A stretch of DNA of 64,000 nt, taken from positions 4,595,628 through 4,659,627 of the forward strand of contig NZ_CM001974.1 of the NCBI RefSeq assembly GCF_000406105.1, read 5' to 3'. Under the pieces are notes generated by a model. That model did no database searches. It was not told the origin of the DNA and worked only from the letters and a program-made list of their open reading frames with translations. The number at the start of each line of letters is the position of its first letter. Positions within the stretch are counted from its first letter, which is position 1. Below are positions 28,689 to 42,449 of this stretch, piece by piece. Source of the stretch: Dickeya chrysanthemi NCPPB 402. GTDB taxonomy: Bacteria; Pseudomonadota; Gammaproteobacteria; Enterobacterales; Enterobacteriaceae. The position numbers and the translations under genes are program-made.

Positions 28689-30059
28689 ATGTCAAACAGT
28701 GCAATGAGTGTGGTTATCCTTGCCGCCGGTAAGGGAACCCGCATGTATTCCGATCTTCCCAAAGTTCTTCACCCTCTGGCGGGTAAACCGATAGTTCAGC
28801 ATGTGATCGATGCGGCGATGGCGGTTGGCGCACGTCGTATTCATCTGGTTTACGGACACGGTGCAAACCTGATTCGGGAAACGCTGACGGAAACGTCGTT
28901 GAATTGGGTATTGCAGGCCGAGCAGTTGGGAACCGGCCATGCGGTGCAGCAAGCGGCCGATGGTTTTGACGATAACGAAGACATCCTGATTTTGTACGGC
29001 GACGTGCCGCTGATTTCCCCTGCAACGTTGCAGCGTTTGGTGGCAGCCAAACCGCAAGGCGGGATTGGCCTGCTGACCGTCAATCTGGCTGACCCTACCG
29101 GTTACGGCCGTATTGTGCGGGACAACGGCGAAGTGGTGGGGATTGTGGAGCATAAAGACGCCACCGAACAGCAGCGTGCGATCACCGAAATCAACACCGG
29201 CATTCTGGTGGCGGGCGGTCGCGATTTGAAGCGTTGGTTAAGCCAGCTCAATAATCACAATGTGCAAGGCGAATATTATCTTACCGATATCATCGCCATG
29301 GCCTCGCAGGAAGGCCAACGCGTGGTGGCGGTGCAGCCGTCGCGTCTGAGTGAGGTGGAAGGCATCAATAACCGTCTGCAACTGGCGACGCTGGAGCGTA
29401 CTTACCAGCGCGAGCAGGCGGAACAGTTATTGCTGGCGGGTGTCATGCTGCTGGACCCGGCGCGTTTTGACCTGCGTGGCGAACTGGTGCATGGCCGTGA
29501 TGTGACGATCGATGCCAACGTCATTCTGGAAGGCCGGGTGACGCTGGGTAATCGGGTGAAAATCGGCGCGGGCTGCGTGATCAAAAACAGTGAGATCGGC
29601 GACGATTGCGAGCTTAGCCCCTACACCGTGGTGGAAAACGCAGTACTGGAAGCGCGTTGTACCGTTGGCCCGTTTGCTCGCCTGCGCCCTGGCGCGGTGC
29701 TGGAAGAAGAGGCGCATGTCGGCAATTTTGTTGAATTGAAAAAAGCGCGTCTCGGCAAAGGATCGAAAGCCGGTCATCTGACTTACCTCGGTGATACGGA
29801 AATCGGCTCTGATGTGAATATCGGCGCAGGTGTGATTACCTGTAACTACGATGGCGCCAATAAACACCAGACGATAATTGGCAACGATGTGTTTGTCGGT
29901 TCGGATAGCCAGTTGATTGCACCGGTTAAGGTGGCCAACGGCGCCACCATTGGGGCAGGCACCACGGTCACCCGTGATGTGGGTGAAAACGAACTGGTTA
30001 TCAGCCGCGTAAAACAAACCCATATCACCGGCTGGAAACGCCCGGTGAAGAAAAAATAG
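28689..30059 (+). CDS. glmU: Bifunctional GlcNAc-1-P uridyltransferase / GlcN-1-P acetyltransferase GlmU
   Basis: Makes UDP-GlcNAc for peptidoglycan and LPS in two steps. The N-terminal nucleotidyltransferase domain carries [25 protein letters not shown] linker near residue 230 leads to the left-handed beta-helix acetyltransferase with hexapeptide repeats and CoA-site motifs such as [11 protein letters not shown]. The start is taken as ATG 28689, six bases after an AGGA; ATG 28683 overlaps that site. 456 aa. It lies upstream of glmS as in other enterics, with a 254-bp spacer. Confidence 0.96.
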
Positions 30060-30313
30060 TTTTATCCCCCGGATGCGGCGTTCTACTTTATCTTTATTGC
30101 GTGTTTAGCTTTAGCGCGTGGAACGCCGCTGAACCTTAGGGGGAATGCGTCTTGATTTAAGACGGTTTCGGCCTGTGTTCTCATGGTGAATACAGGCCAA
30201 AACATAATAATCCCCATTCTCTACAAGGCTCGGGGAACCCGGAAAAAACCGGAACAATCAGGTCTAAAGACATCGTGGTGACACAATATGTCACGTTTAC
30301 AGGAATACAACCG

Positions 30314-32149
30314 ATGTGTGGAATTGTAGGCGCTGTTGCGCAACGAGATATTGCTGAGATCCTGCTGGAGGGGCTACGCCGCCTCGAGTACCGTGGTTAT
30401 GACTCTGCCGGTCTGGCGGTGGTGAATAGTGAAGGAACGGTGTCCCGCCTGCGCCGTCTGGGTAAAGTGCAGGTGTTGGCTCAGGCGGCGGAAGAGCATC
30501 CGCTGTTGGGCGGAACCGGCATTGCCCACACCCGTTGGGCGACCCACGGTGAACCGTCTGAGCAGAATGCTCACCCGCATGTGTCTGGCGACATTATTGT
30601 GGTGCACAACGGTATCATTGAAAACCATGAGCCGCTGCGCGAGTTACTGGTATCCCGTGGCTATCATTTTGTTTCCGAAACCGATACCGAAGTGGTGGCG
30701 CATCTGGTGCATTGGGAACAGCAGCAGAACGGCGGTTCGTTGCTGGATATCGTACAGCGCGTTATCCCGCAGTTGCGTGGTGCGTACGGCATGGTGCTGC
30801 TGGATAGCCGCGACCCCAGCGTACTGGTTGCCGCACGTTCCGGTAGCCCGCTGGTGATTGGCCGTGGTGTCGGTGAAAACTTTATTGCTTCCGATCAGCT
30901 GGCATTGCTGCCGGTAACTCGTCGCTTCATCTTCCTGGAAGAAGGTGACATCGCCGAAATCACGCGTCGTACCGTGCGCATCGTCAACCGCCAGGGGCAG
31001 GACGTTCAGCGCGAAGAAATTGAATCAAAGGTACAGTACGATGCCGGCGATAAAGGCGCGTACCGTCACTACATGCAAAAAGAGATCTACGAGCAGCCGA
31101 TGGCGATTAAAAACACCCTGGAAGGGCGTTTTAGTCACGGCGAGATCAACTTGTCCGAACTGGGTCCGCAAGCTGATGCATTGCTGGCACAGGTGCAGCA
31201 TATCCAGATTATCGCCTGCGGTACGTCTTATAACTCCGGCATGGTATCGCGTTACTGGTTTGAGTCGCTGGCGGGGATTCCATGCGACGTGGAAATCGCC
31301 TCGGAATTCCGTTACCGCAAACCGGCGGTGCGCGCTAACAGCCTGATGATTACCCTGTCTCAGTCCGGTGAAACCGCCGATACGCTAGCGGCATTGCGTT
31401 TGTCGAAAGAACTGGGGTATCTGGGGTCGCTGGCGATTTGTAACGTAGCGGGTTCGTCGCTGGTGCGTGAATCGAATCTGGCGCTGATGACCCGCGCCGG
31501 TACCGAAATCGGCGTGGCATCCACCAAGGCATTCACGACACAATTGACGGTATTGCTGATGCTGGTGGCGCGTATTGGTCGTCTGCGCGGTATGGATGCT
31601 CGTATCGAGCACGATATCGTACATGCTTTGCAGGCATTGCCGGCGCGTATCGAACAGATGCTGTCGCAAGACAAACTGATCGAATCGCTGGCGGAAGGCT
31701 TCTCCGACAAGCACCATGCGTTGTTCCTGGGCCGTGGCGACCAGTATCCGATAGCAATGGAAGGGGCGCTCAAGCTCAAAGAGATCTCCTATATACACGC
31801 GGAAGCCTATGCGGCGGGTGAACTGAAACACGGGCCGCTGGCGCTGATCGACGCCGATATGCCGGTGGTGGTGGTCGCGCCCAACAACGACCTGCTGGAA
31901 AAACTGAAATCCAACATTGAAGAAGTGCGTGCCCGCGGTGGTGAACTCTACGTATTTGCCGATGAACAGGCCGGTTTCACTTCCGACAGCGACATGATGA
32001 AGATCATCCAGTTGCCGCACGTGGAAGAGGTGATTGCGCCGATCTTCTACACCGTGCCGCTGCAACTGTTGTCGTACCATGTTGCTCTAATCAAAGGCAC
32101 CGATGTAGACCAGCCGCGTAACCTGGCGAAGTCGGTAACGGTGGAGTAA
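30314..32149 (+). CDS. glmS: Glutamine-fructose-6-phosphate aminotransferase GlmS
   Basis: First enzyme of amino-sugar synthesis: makes GlcN-6-P from Fru-6-P and glutamine. The N-terminal Ntn glutaminase begins MCGIVGAV, so processing exposes the catalytic Cys. Two SIS domains follow ([15 protein letters not shown] and the region around [18 protein letters not shown]), and the protein ends in NLAKSVTVE. The start is ATG 30314, needed to put Cys at position 2; the frame begins at 30275. 611 aa. In enterics the glmUS spacer is processed and the sRNA GlmZ activates glmS; that control is likely but not shown here. Confidence 0.97.
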
Positions 32150-32180
32150 AAGGGTCGATATTATTTAATCTTGACCCGAA
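32105..32180 (+). other. Predicted attTn7 region at the glmS 3' end
   Basis: The last ~40 bp of glmS encode the conserved [17 protein letters not shown], the DNA recognised by TnsD of Tn7 in enterics. Insertion normally occurs about 25 bp beyond the stop. No Tn7 end or tns gene is seen here. The segment between glmS and pstS is nevertheless filled with accessory genes. Confidence 0.55.
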
Positions 32181-32188
32181 AAAACATA

Positions 32189-32226
32189 TATCAAAAGCCT
32201 TGGGGTTCTGTCTCAGGGCTTTTTTC
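32189..32226 (+). terminator. glmS terminator
   Basis: AAAAGCCTTGGG and CTCAGGGCTTTT form an imperfect 12-bp stem with an 8-nt loop, followed by TTTTTT. It is probably an intrinsic terminator for glmS, and on the other strand for the convergent diguanylate cyclase gene. Confidence 0.7.
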
Positions 32227-32268
32227 ATTGTATTTAGAATGAAAGGACGACGACTCAATCAATACCTT

Positions 32269-34584
32269 TCATTTCCACACCACCCGATTGCGGCCGGCGT
32301 TTTTCGCTTCGTACAGCGCGTCGTCGGCCCGCTTCATGTCGCTTTCGAAGTTGTCCTTTAGACTCTGAACATTGCGGTGTTTGATAAAAGTAGCGCCGAT
32401 ACTGACGGTAAAATGGAAGGAATAGCCATCAACGGTGAACAGGGTATTTTCCACCTCGGTACGGATACCGTTCATGATGGCGTCCACATTATCGAGATTG
32501 GCGTTGTGCACAATCAGGCCGAACTCTTCGCCACCCAACCTGGCAACGAAGTCATCGGTGCGTAATTTGCTGGTAATGATCTCCGCCAGACGGCAAATCG
32601 CCACGTCTCCGACATGATGGCCGTACTGGTCATTAACCTTCTTGAAAAAGTCGATATCGATAATCGCCAGCGCGGTGTTTTTCTCATGATTTCGGTAGCA
32701 TTTTTCCGTTTCCAGAATGTAGGCGCGCCGGTTATGGATACCGGTCAGGACATCTGTATTGGCCATTTCCAGCAGTTTGGCTTCCAGTTCTTCTCTGGCG
32801 CGTTGGGTTTCCAGCGCGTAGAACAGTGAACCCAGCGTGTCGACGAACGGGTTGAGAAAGCGCAATTGCTGTTCATTGTAACCGTCGAAGCGGTTACCTA
32901 ACCCGATCATTCCCACCACTTCGTTACGAAAATAGATGGGCAACCCCATGAACTGACGCAGAACTGGATGACCCGGCGGCACGCCGCGCGAGGCAGAGTG
33001 CGCGCGCGGTGTATTGGTGATCACCGGTTTGCCGGTGGTTACCACATGCCCGAACAGGTTATCCAGGCTGGTGAACTGCAGTTTGTTTTGCAGGAAGGTA
33101 TCGTAAGAGTTTTTACTGTCGCCGTTCCAACTGACATTGGAAATGGCGACGATATGCAGCACTTTCTTACCATCGTGTTCCCTGACCTGGCCGATGAAAC
33201 CAAACTCCGACTCAGAGATGGAAAGCAGGTCGTTAAAGATGGACATACAGGCTTCCTGAATATCCGTTTTTTCCAGAAAGATCTTTTGCGCCCGGTTAAT
33301 CAGTTCCAGCAGGCGTTTATCCGCCTCTTCCTGCAATTCCTTGTGCTTCTTTTCCGTGATATCGCGGTGAGTGCCGGCAACCCGGATGGGTTTACCTTTT
33401 TCGTTGTATTCAACCACCTTGCCGTAGGTTTCAATCCATACCCAATGGCCTTTATTGTGGCGCATCCGGTATTGCTCGTTGATAAGCGTAGCCTGGCCGG
33501 TGATGCAGGCTTCCGCCGCCAGCACCATTTTTTCCCGATCCAGCGGGTGCATCATCTGTTGCCAGTGATCCATTGAGGAATCGAACTGATCCTGCGTGAG
33601 CCCCATCATTTCGCACCACTGTTTATTCACGCGAATGTTGTGTCGCCCCAGATCCCAGTCCCAGGTGCCAAGGCTGGAGGATTCCAGCACCAGCCGCATC
33701 TGATTATTGGTATCCACCAGTAATTTTTGCAGGTATTTCTGGTGGGAGTTATCAATTAGCAGCGCCTGTACGTGGCTGAGTTTGCCGCTGTGATGATAAT
33801 TGGCGATGGAAAGCTGGCGAATCCACAGGGTTTTTCCTTTGGGCGACAGAAAGCGATATTCGCACTCCAGATTCGCCACGCCTTTTTTGTGGTTATCCAG
33901 CGTAAATAACAGATTTTCGTAGTCGTCCGGGTGGACATAGCTTTCCATCACCGTGCTGCTATGCCTGATCTCTGCTTCGCTAATACCCAGAACATGTTGC
34001 GCGTTGGGGGAGATGTAGGAAATCTGCAGCATATTTTCTTGCTGCCAGTTGATAAGCACCACGGAAGAGTTGTTTAGCAGCCGGATTTCCTGCTCCCGGT
34101 GCAGCCGGTCGTTGTGCAATCGGAACAGAGACTCCGTGGTGCTGGCGATAAGCGCGGCGGTTTCGCGTACCGTCTCATCCAGTGTACGTGGCTGGTAATC
34201 GATGGCCGCCAGCGTGCCGACCACGACCTTGTCGAGTACCAGAGGAATGCCAAAGTAGCTGCGGATATGCGGGGCGCCGGTCACCAGGGGGTGTTCGCAA
34301 AACTGGCTATTCGTCAGGGTGTCAGGAATAAACAGGGTGGTGGCGGTGGTAATCACTGTGTTGCAAAACGCCAGTTCCCGGTCTGTGCATTCGATATTGA
34401 TGCCTTCGCTGAAAATCAGCCATTGCTTGTCGTGATCGATAATCGAGATAAATGACGAGGGAAAATTCAGTATCCGTGCAAATAATCTGACCTGGTTTTG
34501 AAAGGATTGCTGTAAGTATAAGTCGAGCAAATGATATTCATTAATCTTTGCGACGCGCTGCTCGTCGGCGTTATATTTTTTCAT
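32269..34584 (-). CDS. Multi-sensor diguanylate cyclase (GAF-PAS-PAS-GAF-GGDEF)
   Basis: Predicted soluble sensor that makes cyclic di-GMP. Domains in order: an N-terminal GAF-like domain (about residues 15-160), PAS (about 165-290), PAS/PAC (about 300-430, with WVWIETYGKVVEYNEKG), a second GAF (about 440-600) and GGDEF (about 610-770). The active site is GGEEF, a functional variant. An RTDD inhibitory I-site lies five residues upstream, so product feedback is likely. No membrane segment or EAL domain is seen. The start is ATG 34584 after AGGAA; the frame extends to 34638. It is not present between glmS and pstS in E. coli, so it is accessory. Confidence 0.88.
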   Translation of the reverse strand: MKKYNADEQRVAKINEYHLLDLYLQQSFQNQVRLFARILNFPSSFISIIDHDKQWLIFSEGINIECTDRELAFCNTVITTATTLFIPDTLTNSQFCEHPLVTGAPHIRSYFGIPLVLDKVVVGTLAAIDYQPRTLDETVRETAALIASTTESLFRLHNDRLHREQEIRLLNNSSVVLINWQQENMLQISYISPNAQHVLGISEAEIRHSSTVMESYVHPDDYENLLFTLDNHKKGVANLECEYRFLSPKGKTLWIRQLSIANYHHSGKLSHVQALLIDNSHQKYLQKLLVDTNNQMRLVLESSSLGTWDWDLGRHNIRVNKQWCEMMGLTQDQFDSSMDHWQQMMHPLDREKMVLAAEACITGQATLINEQYRMRHNKGHWVWIETYGKVVEYNEKGKPIRVAGTHRDITEKKHKELQEEADKRLLELINRAQKIFLEKTDIQEACMSIFNDLLSISESEFGFIGQVREHDGKKVLHIVAISNVSWNGDSKNSYDTFLQNKLQFTSLDNLFGHVVTTGKPVITNTPRAHSASRGVPPGHPVLRQFMGLPIYFRNEVVGMIGLGNRFDGYNEQQLRFLNPFVDTLGSLFYALETQRAREELEAKLLEMANTDVLTGIHNRRAYILETEKCYRNHEKNTALAIIDIDFFKKVNDQYGHHVGDVAICRLAEIITSKLRTDDFVARLGGEEFGLIVHNANLDNVDAIMNGIRTEVENTLFTVDGYSFHFTVSIGATFIKHRNVQSLKDNFESDMKRADDALYEAKNAGRNRVVWK

Positions 34585-34662
34585 TGTCACTGTTCCTGTA
34601 AAAATAAATAAAATCAGTGCTTTATGTCCTGGTGGCAAAACAGAAAAACGCGACTATTAGGC

Positions 34663-34698
34663 TCGGTTATAAATTCGGTTATAGATTCGGTTATAAAT
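34663..34698. repeat. Three 12-bp tandem repeats upstream of the cyclase gene
   Basis: Three consecutive 12-bp units (TCGGTTATAAAT, TCGGTTATAGAT, TCGGTTATAAAT) lie about 80-115 bp upstream of the diguanylate cyclase start. Iterated AT-rich units here may contain overlapping -10-like TATAAT-type elements or bind a regulator. Copy number may vary. Confidence 0.85.
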
Positions 34699-34797
34699 AA
34701 AGTGGAAACACCCTGTAGGGGCGTTGGGTCCTGACGTGAGAACGCTGTTTTTTCAGCGACATATTTGAGTATAGAACAGGTTTTTTATTGCTTGCGC

Positions 34798-34841
34798 TAT
34801 ACCTGTCATACTTTACGTTGCTGGTATGCAGGCTTGCTGCA
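34798..34841. repeat. Degenerate ERIC fragment
   Basis: The segment TATACCTGTCATACTTTACG onward to CTTGCTGC resembles the left third of the ERIC copies in this window, with several substitutions and no right half. It is probably a decayed remnant. Confidence 0.5.
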
Positions 34842-34896
34842 CTACAAGAGGATTTTTAGTGCTTTTTATTACTTGGATGGTTTTTCCAGGAATTAA

Positions 34897-34937
34897 ATAA
34901 AAAAAACCTCCATTTTTAAGGAGTAGGGAGGTTTTTT
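34897..34937 (-). terminator. Terminator after the three-gene cassette
   Basis: AAAAAACCTCC (34901-34911) and GGAGGTTTTTT (34927-34937) form an 11-bp perfect inverted repeat with a 15-nt loop. A and T runs on both sides suit termination in either direction. It lies 20 bp beyond the stop of the P-loop ATPase gene and closes the cassette. Confidence 0.8.
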
Positions 34938-34957
34938 ATAAGTGTTTTATTATTAGA

Positions 34958-36397
34958 TCAGGATTTTTGGGGTTTAACGCCACCTTTTCGGCCTAAACCA
35001 AAGCCAACCCGATAGAGATCGGGCATATCAATACGCTCGCTGTTACGCTCTTCAAATACGCCTATTCTTAACAAGTCCAGTTTTAGGCCCGGCCAGCCTT
35101 TCTGGGCATGTTGAGGGGGTAACTTGTTTGGGTTTTCTGGCATTCCTTGTGGGAATGCGTGATCCCAGCGCTGTTGTATTACGCTGGAATCGATAGGTAC
35201 GTTAAGCCCATGCAAGGGTGTTAAGAACTCGCTTACCCACGGATAATCTTCTGTCAGTTCACTGACTCTGATCTCGGATGCTTTTTGAACGCCTCGTTTA
35301 ATACTTTCATAGTGCAACGAGTAGGTATAGTCGGGGTAGCGATCCATCGAATCTTCGGCAGCCTGTCGTATTGCCGCTAAAAACGAGCGGGGGGAGGTTC
35401 GACCTTTCCCATCGGCCAGATGGCTAACAGCCCAGACATAAGGAACACCACGACGGCGGTCCTTACCCATCCACGGCCCGGCCAGTGTTTCAAACAATTC
35501 TCTTTGTGATGATGTTTCACGCTTTACGTCATCATGCGGTACAAAACGGGAATCGGAATGCTCGGGCGGTTTATTCAGGGTTTGGGTATAACACTTGCGC
35601 AGTACGTCACCCTGTGATGTTTCACCATTAATCAGATACTGCCATAGCAGGCCATGCAAGTCATGTCTGGCCCAGGACAGTTCTGCTTTGGTGGCAAGTA
35701 ACTTGGAAGCATCAGGAAAGTCGGTAACGGTTCTTTCCAGTTGGTCTTCGCGTAAGAAGACTTTAGCGGTGAGACGGCTATATGGTTTTAACCACAAAAC
35801 AACCCGTAACAGACCACGCACAATATTATCCATGATTGACCAATTGGTACTGAGTCTGTCTAGCGCGTCAAATAAAATCAAAGCATAGCGACCGCCCCCT
35901 TCAAACGATTGGTTGGCCTGAGACATGGCTGTTGCAATATTTTCTGGATTTTGCTGTACCCAGAATATTTTATCTGACCACGTTGCCTGTTGAGCTAACA
36001 GTGACTGTTGTGCCAGTTTGTCGATACCGGATACGACAATTGTGCGCCAGATATCGTAGGCATCAAAGCTCTTCACCAAGTGAGAAAAAGTATCTGGGTC
36101 TGGATAATCGTTATTATTGGGACGTTCTGAAAAACCGATATGAATATCAGTGCTATCTAGTTGCGGAATGGATGAACCTAACACTTTACGCAATGCAGGA
36201 TCACCAAGTGCCGCCGTCCAGACGGACTTCCCTACTCCTCGTGTGCCCACAACCAGTAAACTTTCCGGTCTTAGCGCTTTCAAATGTGCGGGCGGAATAT
36301 AGAGATGTTTTAATGGCGGCGCAGACCCGCTGTATGAGGTATCCGCAGGTAAGGTTTCATAAATGGCTCGACGGATATCTGCTGCGCTACTCATCAT
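34958..36397 (-). CDS. P-loop ATPase of an accessory three-gene cassette
   Basis: Product family not recognised. The 479-aa protein has a clear Walker A, GTRGVGKS (residues 51-58), and a Walker B-like RYALILFDALDRLS (about 170-183). There is no obvious signal peptide or membrane span. The large C-terminal half after residue 200 has no motif I can name. The arrangement (short lead-in, P-loop, long variable tail) resembles STAND or AAA effectors of prokaryotic conflict systems, but that is inference. ATG 36397 or 36394 is preceded by GGAGAG. It is third in a minus-strand cassette with a ParA-like ATPase and a HEPN-like protein, separated from them by an ERIC element. Confidence 0.7.
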   Translation of the reverse strand: MMSSAADIRRAIYETLPADTSYSGSAPPLKHLYIPPAHLKALRPESLLVVGTRGVGKSVWTAALGDPALRKVLGSSIPQLDSTDIHIGFSERPNNNDYPDPDTFSHLVKSFDAYDIWRTIVVSGIDKLAQQSLLAQQATWSDKIFWVQQNPENIATAMSQANQSFEGGGRYALILFDALDRLSTNWSIMDNIVRGLLRVVLWLKPYSRLTAKVFLREDQLERTVTDFPDASKLLATKAELSWARHDLHGLLWQYLINGETSQGDVLRKCYTQTLNKPPEHSDSRFVPHDDVKRETSSQRELFETLAGPWMGKDRRRGVPYVWAVSHLADGKGRTSPRSFLAAIRQAAEDSMDRYPDYTYSLHYESIKRGVQKASEIRVSELTEDYPWVSEFLTPLHGLNVPIDSSVIQQRWDHAFPQGMPENPNKLPPQHAQKGWPGLKLDLLRIGVFEERNSERIDMPDLYRVGFGLGRKGGVKPQKS

Positions 36398-36425
36398 GCT
36401 CTCCGGGATAGCTGGTTAGACTCTG

Positions 36426-36552
36426 TATACCCGTCATACTTCAAGTTGCAGGTGCGTTGGCTGCACTCGCTCACCCCAGTCACTTACTTGAGTAAGTTCT
36501 TGGGGATTCACTCGGTTGCCGTCTTCCTGCAACTCGAATTATTTTGGGTATA
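36426..36552. repeat. ERIC element (127 bp)
   Basis: A complete ERIC/IRU: TATACCCGTCATACTTCAAG at one end and CTCGAATTATTTTGGGTATA at the other, with the central CTCACCCCAGTCACTTAC segment that matches ERIC PCR primer sites. The two ends are inverted repeats. It lies between the two ATPase genes of the cassette, and its right end overlaps the last codons of the ParA-like gene. Confidence 0.92.
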
Positions 36553-37828
36553 TACCTTCAATTAACGTGCCGAAAATTGATTTTACTTCGGCGGAGTCTA
36601 TCGTGTTTTGCGCAAATCTGGAATGTAGCGATGTTAGTGCGGAGAATCCTCTATTCCAGCGAATCGCCCATGGATAGTGAGGTGCCGATTCGTCATTCAT
36701 CTCAAAGCTGAAAAGATTTTCTACTGTTTCACCCGGTGGTACTTCGTCATAAAGTGTTGAGGAAAACAATTCATAGGCGTTCTCACACAAGCCGGAAAAA
36801 TAGCCCTCGCGTCGTTCGTCATCAGGAATCATTGCACCGATAAGCTGCAAACGTTCACGAATGTCAGCGGCCTTACCCGAACGGTTCCAGTGGTCAAATA
36901 ACACCCGATACCCCGACCAGGTTTGCTCACCGTCCAGTGTAAACAATAGCACTGTATTGGCACCGATATCGGTAACACAACTGGAGGCGACCTCATCAAT
37001 TCCTGAGCGTGAATCAATTAAAATGACATCAGGCTTAATCCTTTCTTCCAACTGATCAATCAGGCGGTGGAGCCTGTGGGACCAGCTTTCCCGGGTGCCG
37101 TTGCGATCCATTTTGGGCATCCAGGCCCTACCCAACTTGGCGATATATTCGCCAGGATTTTTGCCATGCGCGGGTATCACGTAAATGTCGCCGTCATGAG
37201 ATAGCGTGCTGGTAGCCACCATGTCGGCAATCAGGTTGTTGCCATTCTCGACGAGGTCTTCCACTAGCCAGTCGGCAATACCATAAGTCGGGCGACGGTC
37301 TTCCGGTAGCAAGGCGGTAGATAAGCCTGGGGACTCAAGATCCAGATCAAGAACCATGACTTTTTTACCGGCTTGCGCCAGCGACCATGCACAAGCCGCC
37401 ATCGCGGTCGAACGACCAACACCGCCCTTGATAGAAAAAAAGACGATGCGACTGGCACCGTTAGATTCTGGCGTGATCATATCCCAACGGCTTTCTGTCG
37501 CCAGTCGGTCAACCACATAGACGCCGGGAATATCATCAGCCAGTGCAAAATGGGCGGTACATTGATAAACCGACTCGACATTGGATTCGTATAAGACGGT
37601 GCCATCTGGTGCAAAGCTGTGGGGTGCCAGTTCGGCTGAAAACTGCTCGGCAATCGCACTAACTGCAGCCTGTTGTTCAGGATTGTTATGGACGGATTCA
37701 GAAACGATTAACCTGACTTTGCCATTCAGATCTCGGTTGATCACTACCGGTTGAATATGGCTGATAAGATCAGCGTAAGGTTTAAGAATATCTTTAATCT
37801 TAGGTAGCAATTCGTCAAAGGTGATCAT
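36539..37828 (-). CDS. ParA/MinD-like ATPase with KGGVGR P-loop
   Basis: A 429-aa protein. An N-terminal region of about 125 residues has no recognised domain. It is followed by a deviant-Walker ATPase: KGGVGRST (residues 134-141), where canonical ParA has KGGVGKT, then LDLDLESPGLS (about 160-170) and ILIDSRSGIDEV. NCBI naming has, to my recollection, a KGGVGR-motif variant AAA ATPase family; membership should be tested. The final residues IYPK and the stop codon are encoded by the end of an ERIC element, so the native C terminus may have been altered. Its start overlaps the upstream HEPN-like gene by 4 bp (ATGA type), so both are translated together. Function unknown; a conflict or defence role is inferred. 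Confidence 0.72.
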   Translation of the reverse strand: MITFDELLPKIKDILKPYADLISHIQPVVINRDLNGKVRLIVSESVHNNPEQQAAVSAIAEQFSAELAPHSFAPDGTVLYESNVESVYQCTAHFALADDIPGVYVVDRLATESRWDMITPESNGASRIVFFSIKGGVGRSTAMAACAWSLAQAGKKVMVLDLDLESPGLSTALLPEDRRPTYGIADWLVEDLVENGNNLIADMVATSTLSHDGDIYVIPAHGKNPGEYIAKLGRAWMPKMDRNGTRESWSHRLHRLIDQLEERIKPDVILIDSRSGIDEVASSCVTDIGANTVLLFTLDGEQTWSGYRVLFDHWNRSGKAADIRERLQLIGAMIPDDERREGYFSGLCENAYELFSSTLYDEVPPGETVENLFSFEMNDESAPHYPWAIRWNRGFSALTSLHSRFAQNTIDSAEVKSIFGTLIEGIYPK

Positions 37829-38238
37829 ATCGCACCATCCGTTTTAGCTTGCTTGAGTATATTTTGAACCTGCTTGGCTCCGTTGCGATGTTTTTCCGCT
37901 GTCATTTGAGTGAAATTTTGTTGATGGGTGTAGCGCTGTGATGCCCGCCAGTCATCGAACGGATTGTCGGAAGGTAGGAGATAGTCAGTAACACATCGAC
38001 CGCTGCGATAAGTTTCGTATCGTAGCCAAATAGTATCAATATGCTTTTTGTCGTTGGTGTTACTGGGCATGTCTTTGTTGGTATCAAAGGGCATACCAAA
38101 CGCCAGCATCAACTTTTTTAATCCACTCTCTGCCGAGAAGCCATAAAGATGATCGGCATTGGCCCAGCGTTCCTGCGTAAACAGAATTTCTGCATCTTGC
38201 CAGTGGCGTTCACAGGCGTCTTCAAAGTCGGTTGCCAT
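37825..38238 (-). CDS. Small HEPN-like protein, first gene of the cassette
   Basis: A 137-aa soluble protein. The N-terminal pattern ERHWQDAEILFTQERWANAD followed by HLYGFSAESGLKKLM resembles helix 1-2 of HEPN-fold proteins (the GYAAE-LK pattern). Near the C terminus, WRASQRYTH gives R98-x6-H105, close to the R-x4-6-H catalytic motif of HEPN RNases, but alignment is needed to confirm it. There is no signal peptide. ATG 38238 follows an AAGGAG about 12 bp upstream. It is first in an operon with the ParA-like and P-loop ATPases. HEPN partners in such sets are often toxins or nucleic-acid sensors; this is inference. Confidence 0.6.
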   Translation of the reverse strand: MATDFEDACERHWQDAEILFTQERWANADHLYGFSAESGLKKLMLAFGMPFDTNKDMPSNTNDKKHIDTIWLRYETYRSGRCVTDYLLPSDNPFDDWRASQRYTHQQNFTQMTAEKHRNGAKQVQNILKQAKTDGAI

Positions 38239-38413
38239 GACGGTATTTCGCTCCTTGTAACCTTAGACCGATTTATTCAAGGTCTAAATAAGCATTGTGA
38301 CAAGTGATTTTACCGAAACCAGAGGCTGATAGAATTATCTCTTTGAAAGTATTACATAGATGACTAAATCAATGGTTGCCTATTCCTGGTGGATATCTCC
38401 ATTCCTGACTCAC

Positions 38414-38453
38414 CTGTCACATAACTGTCATATTAAGTACATTTTACTGTCAC
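38414..38453 (+). promoter_or_regulatory. Pho boxes upstream of pstS
   Basis: CTGTCACATAACTGTCAT (38414-38431) is a PhoB box of two CTGTCA repeats with 11-bp periodicity. A further CTGTCAC at 38447 suggests a second box. They lie about 100 bp before pstS, as in E. coli, and predict induction under phosphate limitation by PhoB. The rest of 38239-38543 carries the divergent leaders of pstS and the cassette. Confidence 0.85.
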
Positions 38454-38543
38454 TGAATTGACCTATTTTCTCCACCAGCAAACTACACTCTGATTAAACA
38501 ATAGCTCCGGGTTTACACGTCTACGGATCCCACAGGAGGGATT

Positions 38544-39584
38544 ATGAAACTCATGCGTACCACTGTTGCCAGTATCGTTGCTGCAAGTTTTTCTCTGACG
38601 GCGGTTTCTGCTTTTGCCGCGGCAAATCTCACTGGTGCAGGTGCGACGTTCCCCGCTCCGGTTTATGCAAAGTGGGCTGATTCTTACGAAAAAGAAACCG
38701 GCAACAAAGTTAACTATCAGGGCATTGGTTCATCGGGCGGCGTGAAACAGATCACCGCCAAAACCGTGGATTTCGGTGCTTCTGACGCACCGCTGGCGGA
38801 TGACAAACTGGCTCAGGACGGTCTGTTCCAGTTCCCGACCGTGATCGGCGGTATCGTGCTGGCGGTTAATGTGCCGGGCGTGAAAGCCGGTGAGCTGACG
38901 CTGGACGGCAAAACGCTGGGTGACATCTACCTGGGCAAGATTAAGAAATGGAACGATGACGCTATCGCCAAACTGAACCCTGGCGTGAAACTGCCGGATC
39001 AGGATATCGCCGTGGTGCGCCGTGCCGACGGTTCCGGTACGTCTTATGTGTTCACCAGCTATCTGGCGAAAGTGAACAGCGAGTGGAAAGAGAAGATTGG
39101 CGCCGGCAACACCGTAAACTGGCCGACCGGTCTGGGTGGCAAAGGCAATGACGGTATCGCGGCATTTGTTCAGCGTCTGCCGGGGTCTATCGGCTATGTT
39201 GAGTATGCGTATGCCAAGCAGAATAACCTGGTGTACACCAAACTGATTTCTGCCGACGGCAAAGCCGTTAGCCCGACGGAAGGCGCATTCAGCAACGCAG
39301 CCAAAGGCGTTGACTGGAGCAAGTCCTTCGCACAGGACCTGACCAACCAGAAAGGCGCGGATGTATGGCCGATCACCTCTACGACCTTCATCCTGATTCA
39401 CAAAGAGCAGAGCAAGCCTGAGCAGGGTACGGAAGTGCTGAAGTTCTTCGACTGGGCGTACAACAAAGGCGGCGATCAGGCGAAAGCGCTGGATTACGCC
39501 ACCCTGCCGAAAGACGTGGTTGCGCAGGTACGTGCGGCATGGAAAACCCAAATCAAAGACAGCAGTGGTAAGGCGCTGTATTGA
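38544..39584 (+). CDS. pstS: Phosphate ABC transporter periplasmic binding protein PstS
   Basis: High-affinity phosphate receptor in the periplasm. A Sec signal peptide covers residues 1-25 (MKLMRTT to AVSAFA). The mature protein starts [19 protein letters not shown], with phosphate ligands in GSSGGVK and the RADGSGTS loop. 346 aa, the same as E. coli. An AGGAGG precedes ATG 38544. It is the first gene of the pst operon, behind Pho boxes. Confidence 0.97.
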
Positions 39585-39714
39585 TTGCGGTTAGCAACAT
39601 CAGTTAGGTGAGTCACGCGGGGTGGATAAACCGGAAACGGGGTATCCGCCTCTGACCTTCATGGGGTTCATCCCCATTATCTGAAAGACGCAGTTACTGA
39701 AAGAAGAGAGACGT

Positions 39715-40695
39715 ATGGCTGAGCAAAAGCCAACTATTACACCTCCGGGAAAAACTATTACACCCCCGGGAAAACAGGGCGACATTCTCTTCGGGGCGCT
39801 GGTCAGGCTGGCGGCCCTGTTAACGTTGCTGCTGCTGGGCGGAATTATCGTTTCCCTGATTTTTGCCTCCTGGCCAAGCATCAAAACATTCGGCTTTTCC
39901 TTTTTATGGACCAAAGAGTGGGATGCCCCCGCCGGGCAATTCGGCGCGCTGGTACCGATTTACGGCACTATCGTGACCTCGTTGATCGCACTGATCATCG
40001 CCATTCCCATCAGCTTCGGTATCGCGTTGTTCCTGACGGAACTGGCGCCGGGCTGGCTGAAACGTCCGCTCGGGGTGGCGATTGAACTGTTGGCCGCGAT
40101 CCCAAGTATCGTTTACGGCATGTGGGGGTTGTTTGTGTTCGCCCCGCTGTTCGCCAAATATTTCCAACAGCCGGTAGGCAACGTGCTTTCCAGCATTCCA
40201 CTGGTCGGCACCCTGTTTTCCGGGCCGGCGTTCGGTATCGGCATTCTGGCCGCCGGGGTGATTCTGGCTATCATGATAATCCCCTACATTGCAGCAGTGA
40301 TGCGCGATGTGTTCGAACAAACGCCGGTAATGATGAAAGAATCCGCTTACGGCATCGGCTGCACCACCTGGGAAGTTATCTGGCACATCGTGCTGCCGTT
40401 CACCAAAAACGGCGTGATTGGCGGCGTTATGCTGGGGCTCGGCCGCGCGCTGGGTGAAACCATGGCGGTGACGTTCATCATCGGTAATACCTACCAGCTC
40501 GACAGCGTCTCGCTCTATATGCCGGGCAACAGTATTACGTCTGCGTTGGCCAACGAATTCGCCGAAGCAGACACCGGGCTACATACCGCCGCGTTGATGG
40601 AACTGGGCCTGATCCTGTTTGTGATTACCTTTATCGTGCTGGCCTGTTCGAAGCTGATGATCATGCGTCTGGCGAAAAACGAAGGAGCGCGCTGA
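39715..40695 (+). CDS. pstC: Phosphate ABC transporter permease PstC
   Basis: Inner-membrane channel subunit of PstSCAB, with six transmembrane segments. The permease loop is in [21 protein letters not shown]. 326 aa against 319 in E. coli; the difference is exactly one extra heptapeptide, because TITPPGK is repeated twice at residues 7-20 (codons 39733-39774). Its stop overlaps the pstA start by 1 bp (TGATG). Confidence 0.96.
39733..39774 (+). repeat. In-frame 21-bp tandem duplication in pstC
   Basis: Two adjacent 21-bp units, 39733-39753 and 39754-39774, differ at one base (CCT against CCC). They encode TITPPGK twice in the cytoplasmic N terminus of PstC. Confidence 0.9.
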
Positions 40696-41582
40696 TGGCA
40701 AGCATTGGTATTGAAAACCGTTCTGACTCGATGGAAACCCGTCGCAAGATGCAAGCCTGGCGCCGTCAGAAAAACCGCATCGCGCTGTTTCTGTCGATGC
40801 TGACGATGGCATTTGGCCTGTTCTGGCTGGTGTGGATTTTGATGTCTACCGTGACCAAGGGCATCGATGGGATGTCGCTGTCGCTGTTTACCGAAATGAC
40901 GCCGCCGCCCAATACGGCGGGCGGCGGTCTGGCGAATGCTATCGTCGGCAGCGGCCTGCTGATTCTGTGGGCGACGCTGTTCGGCACGCCGCTGGGGATT
41001 CTGGCCGGCGTCTATCTGGCGGAATACGGCCGTAAATCGCTGATTGCCGAAGTGATCCGTTTTATTAACGACATTCTGTTGTCGGCGCCGTCGATTGTCG
41101 TCGGGCTGTTCGTCTACACGCTGGTGGTGGCCAAAATGGAGCACTTCTCCGGCTGGGCGGGGGTGATTGCGCTGGCGTTGTTGCAGGTGCCCATCGTGAT
41201 TCGTACCACCGAGAACATGCTGAAACTGGTGCCGGATAGCCTGCGTGAAGCGGCTTACGCACTGGGGACGCCGAAATGGAAGATGATCTCGGCGATTACC
41301 CTGAAGGCATCGATATCCGGCATCATCACCGGGGTGTTGCTGGCGGTGGCGCGTATCGCCGGCGAAACAGCGCCGTTGCTGTTTACCTCGCTGTCGAACC
41401 AGTTCTGGAGCACGGATCTGATGCATCCGATCGCCAACCTGCCGGTCACCATTTTCAAGTTCGCCATGAGTCCGTTCAAGGAGTGGCAGGAGCTGGCATG
41501 GGCCGGGGTATTGCTGATCACCCTGTGCGTGCTACTGCTGAATATCCTGGCGCGCGTACTATTCGCCCAAAAAACACATTAA
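40695..41582 (+). CDS. pstA: Phosphate ABC transporter permease PstA
   Basis: Second channel subunit of the phosphate importer. 295 aa, six transmembrane helices after a basic N terminus ([16 protein letters not shown]). The conserved [18 protein letters not shown] and the permease loop around [21 protein letters not shown] are present. Translation is coupled to pstC by TGATG. Confidence 0.96.
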
Positions 41583-41624
41583 CAGCTTGTCAAAAAGACA
41601 GATTAACAACGCAACATTAAATGA

Positions 41625-42449
<825 letters not shown>

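Follow-up and report, generated by a model that had tools for sequence, protein, structure and literature searches.

What kind of system is encoded by three adjacent minus-strand genes, g1, g2 and g3, that lie at positions 34958-38238 between glmS/GGDEF and pstS in a 64,000-nucleotide stretch (the window) of the Dickeya chrysanthemi NCPPB 402 genome? A sequence-only reading had proposed an undescribed three-gene system, possibly acting in defence. The open reading frame coordinates confirm three genes on the minus strand: g1 (37825..38238) for a HEPN-fold protein of 137 amino acids (aa), g2 (36539..37828), overlapping it by 4 bp, for a 429 aa predicted ParA/MinD-like ATPase with a KGGVGR motif, and g3 (34958..36397) for a 479 aa predicted ORC/STAND-like AAA ATPase. 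We find that the trio is a real, widely conserved three-gene unit, and we judge a defence function of some kind probable. New here is that related trios are nested in Type-2 operons related to BREX (bacteriophage exclusion), and divergent ones in BREX-2 operons.

The three proteins match the PADLOC-DB families PDC-M28A, PDC-M28B and PDC-M28C over nearly their full length (E-values 2.1e-57, 3.3e-183 and 4.4e-207, respectively). With these matches encoded adjacently, the locus belongs to PDC-M28, where PDC denotes a phage defence candidate (PMC11514479, in the part covered). Literature searches for PDC-M28, KGGVGR and Sll1717, which did not extend to supplementary files, returned nothing. Thus the trio is catalogued yet no description of it was found, and "undescribed" holds for the literature searched but not for the database.

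A conserved gene unit, alone and within restriction operons

We collected 80 genome-contig loci through g3 (the best 80 of 140) and two Dickeya loci through g2. The genes follow one another in the order g1-g2-g3 on one strand in 72 of the 82 loci (70/80 among those found through g3), so the trio does occur together outside this strain; since nearly all loci were collected via g3, this figure is conditional on g3. Packing is tight: g1 and g2 share 4 bp in 66 of the 72 trios, and g2 and g3 share 4 bp in 40 and 8 bp in 19. Among the ten loci without a full trio, g1 is split over two frames in L012, L015 has an internal deletion, and g3 lies close to a contig end in L014, L024, L034 and L083. The other four (L043, L061, L071, L074) have g3 without g1; inspection of the sequence found g2 to be absent or, in L071, reduced to a 36-aa C-terminal remnant upstream. 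A survey of 274 class genomes yielded six g1 matches, among them that of the window itself, and each adjoins a g3 match. Three of the nine g3 matches of a 369-genome survey (G076, G330, G338) have no g1 match in the 274-genome set, in which their membership was not established.

Full trios occur in Pseudomonadota, Thermodesulfobacteriota, Chlorobiota, Chloroflexota, Spirochaetota, Bacteroidota, Myxococcota, Synergistota and Bacillota, a nine-phylum spread taken from record titles and tree labels that include several metagenome bins and possibly some wrong labels. Pseudomonas lopnurensis carries a second, divergent full trio (L017:8271-11430) on the opposite strand, adjoining the first.

A DUF1156 methyltransferase (MTase) gene, a PLD-helicase gene or their remnants flank the trio in 10 of the 80 genome-contig loci, and both do so in eight; L039, L049 and L085 hold pieces only, and several of the ten are interrupted by contig ends. 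PADLOC labels the proteins of L036 DUF1156_MTase and PLD_Helicase. Five loci (L153 from G144, one contig of 4.0 Mb, together with L154, L036, L041 and L080) share the order DUF499, DUF3780, other genes, MTase, g1, g2, g3, PLD-helicase, the MTase of L041 being interrupted. These genes are parts of the Type-2 BREX-related (BR) system in the sections covered of Rakesh and Krishnan, 2026 (PMC12839542). Because DUF499 and DUF3780 lie upstream in all five loci, the trio is an addition to the operon; a replacement of these two genes by the trio is ruled out. Twenty plasmid records carry the MTase, and on the five of them that were examined the same system is annotated without the trio. On one trio-less plasmid (L162:12600-13249), a VapC toxin gene sits in the slot between MTase and PLD-helicase that the trio fills elsewhere.

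Plasmid records with g3 also number 20, and 13 of their contexts were read and 12 tested with hidden Markov models. Divergent trios lie within BREX-2 operons in three of the 13: pglW-trio-pglX on a Streptomyces plasmid, pglX pieces-trio-"phage resistance protein"-pglZ on a Thiodictyon plasmid, and pglX-trio-DUF6079-pglZ on a Sphaerotilus plasmid. No match to these BREX-2 proteins was found at 1e-15 in the remaining loci then collected.

In 12-row trees, the PLD-helicases from operons with a trio group in a single clade (7/7, support 80/99, not starred) and their MTases nearly do (6/7 at 95/95, L011 unresolved), the trio-less rows being few and all plasmid-derived. This grouping suggests an old union of trio and operon, passed on by inheritance, and not a series of chance insertions. 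In the g3 tree, operon-bound trios are dispersed among solo ones, and eight rows require six or more changes on starred branches, a count that shuffled labels equal and that is affected by short contigs concealing partners.

The sequence-only reading had offered enrichment near known defence genes as a check. Association with such genes is clear only where the trio is nested in a BREX-related or BREX-2 operon, and the other neighbourhoods look mixed. PADLOC families number 71 among 129 neighbours, drawn at random from 198, versus 7 among 74 control genes from contig starts; this is weak evidence, as one helicase matches many models and members were not counted singly. Of 48 loci scanned, 9 contain tRNA genes, a figure with no control to set beside it. 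Four loci are on viral contigs, and L088 and its near copy L089 carry the full trio; CII-like, repressor and endolysin families surround that of L088. The phage records searched contain no g2 match. Another viral contig locus, L091:8824-10488, holds a solitary g3 relative of 31% identity with neighbours read as ankyrin-type genes. The trio of L078:1935-8874 is located at the 3' end of uvrA, and a partial uvrA copy of 98% identity lies beyond it, as after integration at uvrA; in L050, too, uvrA precedes the trio.

These contexts bear on whether the trio might be a toxin-antitoxin or mobile-element stabilisation module, with a HEPN toxin and a ParA-like antitoxin, and not serve phage defence at all. 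An integrase gene adjoins or lies near the trio in 4 of the 13 plasmid contexts read, as such a module might predict, and HEPN-ParA dyads were put forward as toxin-antitoxin systems in 2013 (PMC3710099, passages on the dyads). The trio, however, includes a third conserved ATPase of sensor type, is nested in restriction operons whose helicases form the single clade described above, and in Dickeya occupies one common chromosomal site. We therefore regard this explanation as quite unlikely.

Three predicted proteins and a possible division of labour

The structural model of g1 has the four-helix HEPN fold that had been supposed from its helix pattern, and rules out "SAM-dependent methyltransferase", the database name of g1 relatives. 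The R-x6-H proposed as its motif (R98, H105) did not survive comparison: His occupies position 105 in 41 of the 73 core g1 proteins and in 1 of the 11 divergent ones, and Asp is the commonest residue at position 98 in the core set, which rules out this pair as the active site. Invariant in all 84 proteins (73 core and 11 divergent) are H66, W97, R102 and Y103, and the acidic E37 sits in helix 2 (helix limits in the model are 25-46 and 67-81). The canonical Rx4-6H of HEPN RNases is absent, no conserved His occurring at that spacing from R102. The pattern fits the alternative-site HEPN proteins of the AbiV/AF0298 type, with a conserved His in the insert between helices 2 and 3 and a basic residue at the motif position. 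Because the g1 profile gave no significant alignment with one AbiV, this candidate assignment is by position and conservation only; the Pfam AbiV model scores 17.5 bits on g1, under its 27.1 cut-off, and alignment against PDB sequences found no convincing relative (best E 0.12).

The second protein matches the NCBIfam KGGVGR AAA ATPase profile NF047398 (203.2 bits, cut-off 90), in line with the earlier assignment, and by profiles g2 is a ParA-like ATPase. Its P-loop reads KGGVGR[ST], here KGGVGRST. The signature K134 is retained and the P-loop lysine is Arg (R139) in 85/85 proteins, so that Arg at this position is a family trait; the deviant Walker A of ParA/MinD proteins (KGGxxK[ST] with the P-loop lysine) does not describe g2. 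D161, D163, D272 and R274 are also invariant, and the N-terminal ~120 aa are less conserved. Slow or no hydrolysis as a result of the P-loop Arg is plausible.

In the g3 model we find an AAA-type P-loop ATPase fold with intact Walker A and Walker B, in agreement with the third prediction, and the GTRGVGKS motif is present as read. NLR structures match about as well as ORC structures. We consider g3 a probable ORC/STAND-like AAA ATPase whose C-terminal region, judged from the model elements, would be a winged helix. It scores 56 bits with NCBIfam NF047389 (Sll1717 P-loop ATPase), under the 75-bit curated cut-off, and alignment against PDB sequences gave no convincing relative, the best hit (E 0.0021) being an unrelated helical protein.

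How might these proteins act together? We give about an even chance to an abortive-infection module with g3 as the sensor, g2 as the restraint and g1 as the RNA-cleaving effector, working either alone or as a backup to restriction. Here g1 would be a HEPN RNase that uses an alternative site of the AbiV/AF0298 type (E37, H66, R102) in place of Rx4-6H, and g2 would bind nucleotide and g1, keeping g1 inactive in a role equivalent to that of MNT in MNT-HEPN pairs. Infection would be detected by g3 as phage nucleic acid or as inhibition of the adjoining restriction system; g3 would then assemble on ATP and free or activate g1, which would cut RNA and halt phage growth. The module may serve some lineages as a backup effector in BREX-related Type-2 or BREX-2 operons and act alone in Dickeya. 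Of this scheme, the computations show the gene unit, the g1 and g3 folds, the conservation and the nesting; RNA cleavage, restraint, sensing and phage defence are inferred.

In the chief rival, g3 (ORC/TnsC/BrxC-like) and g2 (ParA-like) would form an exclusion complex on phage DNA that prevents replication or segregation of that DNA, with g1 as a non-catalytic HEPN adaptor or nucleotide binder. Yet H66 and R102, invariant in 84/84 proteins, together with the acidic E37 in helix 2, resemble an active site, and the NLR matches of g3 roughly equal its ORC matches. Such a complex is a possibility we doubt. A sharper form of the abortive-infection reading makes the trio a self-contained guard, in which a non-canonical HEPN RNase, an arginine-P-loop ParA-like lock and a minimal NLR/ORC-like trigger watch the integrity of BREX-type restriction and fire once a phage disables it, while the trio also travels solo as a general alarm; in this full form we think it unlikely.

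Should the abortive-infection reading be right, it would supply a mechanism and a setting for a catalogued, unexplained defence candidate spanning many phyla, and would show the guard principle of PrrC and PARIS at work in BREX and BREX-related operons with a new combination of sensor, switch and effector. Two questions would also become testable: whether alternative-His HEPN proteins other than AbiV have RNase activity, and what role an arginine P-loop plays in a ParA-like switch.

The Dickeya copy and its insertion site

The trio has a patchy distribution, being present in 8 of the 369 class genomes surveyed and in 3 of the 9 Dickeya genomes, with D. chrysanthemi NCPPB 402 included in each count. 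Against three trio-less Dickeya genomes (L133, L138, L139), homology ends at 34786 and restarts at 38405-38407, with ~180 to 300 bp in between. From these breaks the accessory insert (34787..38404) consists of the three genes and short flanks, which bears out the accessory site proposed earlier. The remaining three trio-less genomes diverge more, with the GGDEF gene also largely or wholly missing. G+C content is 0.48-0.50 across 35001-38000 versus 0.51-0.57 at 30001-34000 and 39001-42000. An everyday cellular role, in DNA segregation or stress regulation for example, might be entertained for the trio, as ParA-like and ORC-like folds are frequent in housekeeping proteins; the patchy distribution and the clean presence or absence at a single site make it highly improbable.

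The 3' end of glmS is the attTn7 side. Three of the 80 other loci (L053, L056, L080) have this end pointing toward the trio or the operon that holds it, by estimate far above chance; the attTn7 side faces the same way in the neighbourhood of the window, where the GGDEF gene separates glmS from the trio. The genome has no PLD-helicase or DUF1156 MTase match, other BREX genes not having been searched for there, and thus by this test the trio stands alone; the helicase model matches in five control genomes and the MTase model in G144 and G078.

A Rho-independent terminator 3' of g3 (34898..34940, minus strand), which had been read as closing the set, is backed by folding of 34896-34948 on the minus strand (-11.8 kcal/mol, z -3.3, none of 200 shuffles equally good); a consensus terminator scan omitted this stem-loop because its loop exceeds the length that the scan permits. 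Between g2 and g3 lies a repeat of ~120 bp (36432-36552), which we take to be ERIC-like (enterobacterial repetitive intergenic consensus). E. coli genomes among the matches listed carry this stretch at a median of 10 places per genome. The repeat takes the place of the last g2 codons and provides the g2 stop, giving 429 aa here versus 437 aa in the relative L132. The two other Dickeya genomes with a trio lack the repeat, and in them g2 and g3 overlap by 8 bp, an overlap that the repeat abolishes here. Thus the repeat alters the g2 C-terminus and uncouples g3. No Rfam family matches at its gathering threshold within 34500-38700.

Comparison with known systems

PDC-M28 in PADLOC is a computational candidate; the searches made found no mechanism for it, and a link to BREX or BR operons was not seen stated. 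The dyad of the HEPN protein MAE_18760 and a ParA/Soj ATPase (Anantharaman, 2013) resembles the trio in pairing a small HEPN gene with a ParA-like ATPase gene. However, the MAE_18760 family retains Rx4-6H by its description, no profile of it having been compared, while g1 does not, and the passages on the dyad describe no third ORC/STAND gene, so the trio falls outside it. HEPN proteins of the AbiV/AF0298 type share with g1 the fold, the absence of the canonical His, an alternative conserved His before the motif and the retained basic residue, but have other partner genes. The MNT-HEPN toxin-antitoxin pairs differ in that their partner is the MNT nucleotidyltransferase, whereas that of the trio is ParA-like, and the trio is not one of them.

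Within restriction operons, HEPN genes are auxiliary effectors of BREX and BR systems, usually standalone or MNT-fused, and the trio is unmentioned in the sections covered (PMC12839542). NTPase-controlled, RNA-cleaving effectors nested as a second line are also represented by PARIS-like modules in BREX (section 35 of the same paper) and by PrrC in Type I restriction operons (PMC3710099, passages covered). The proteins differ from those of the trio: PrrC combines an ABC ATPase with HEPN, and PARIS an OLD ATPase with TOPRIM. In several genomes the BREX-related Type-2 system (DUF499, DUF3780, DUF1156 MTase, PLD-helicase) houses the trio in the slot between its MTase and helicase genes. Such nesting suggests that the trio backs up restriction as a second line, in the way that PrrC does for Type I restriction and PARIS-like modules do for BREX.
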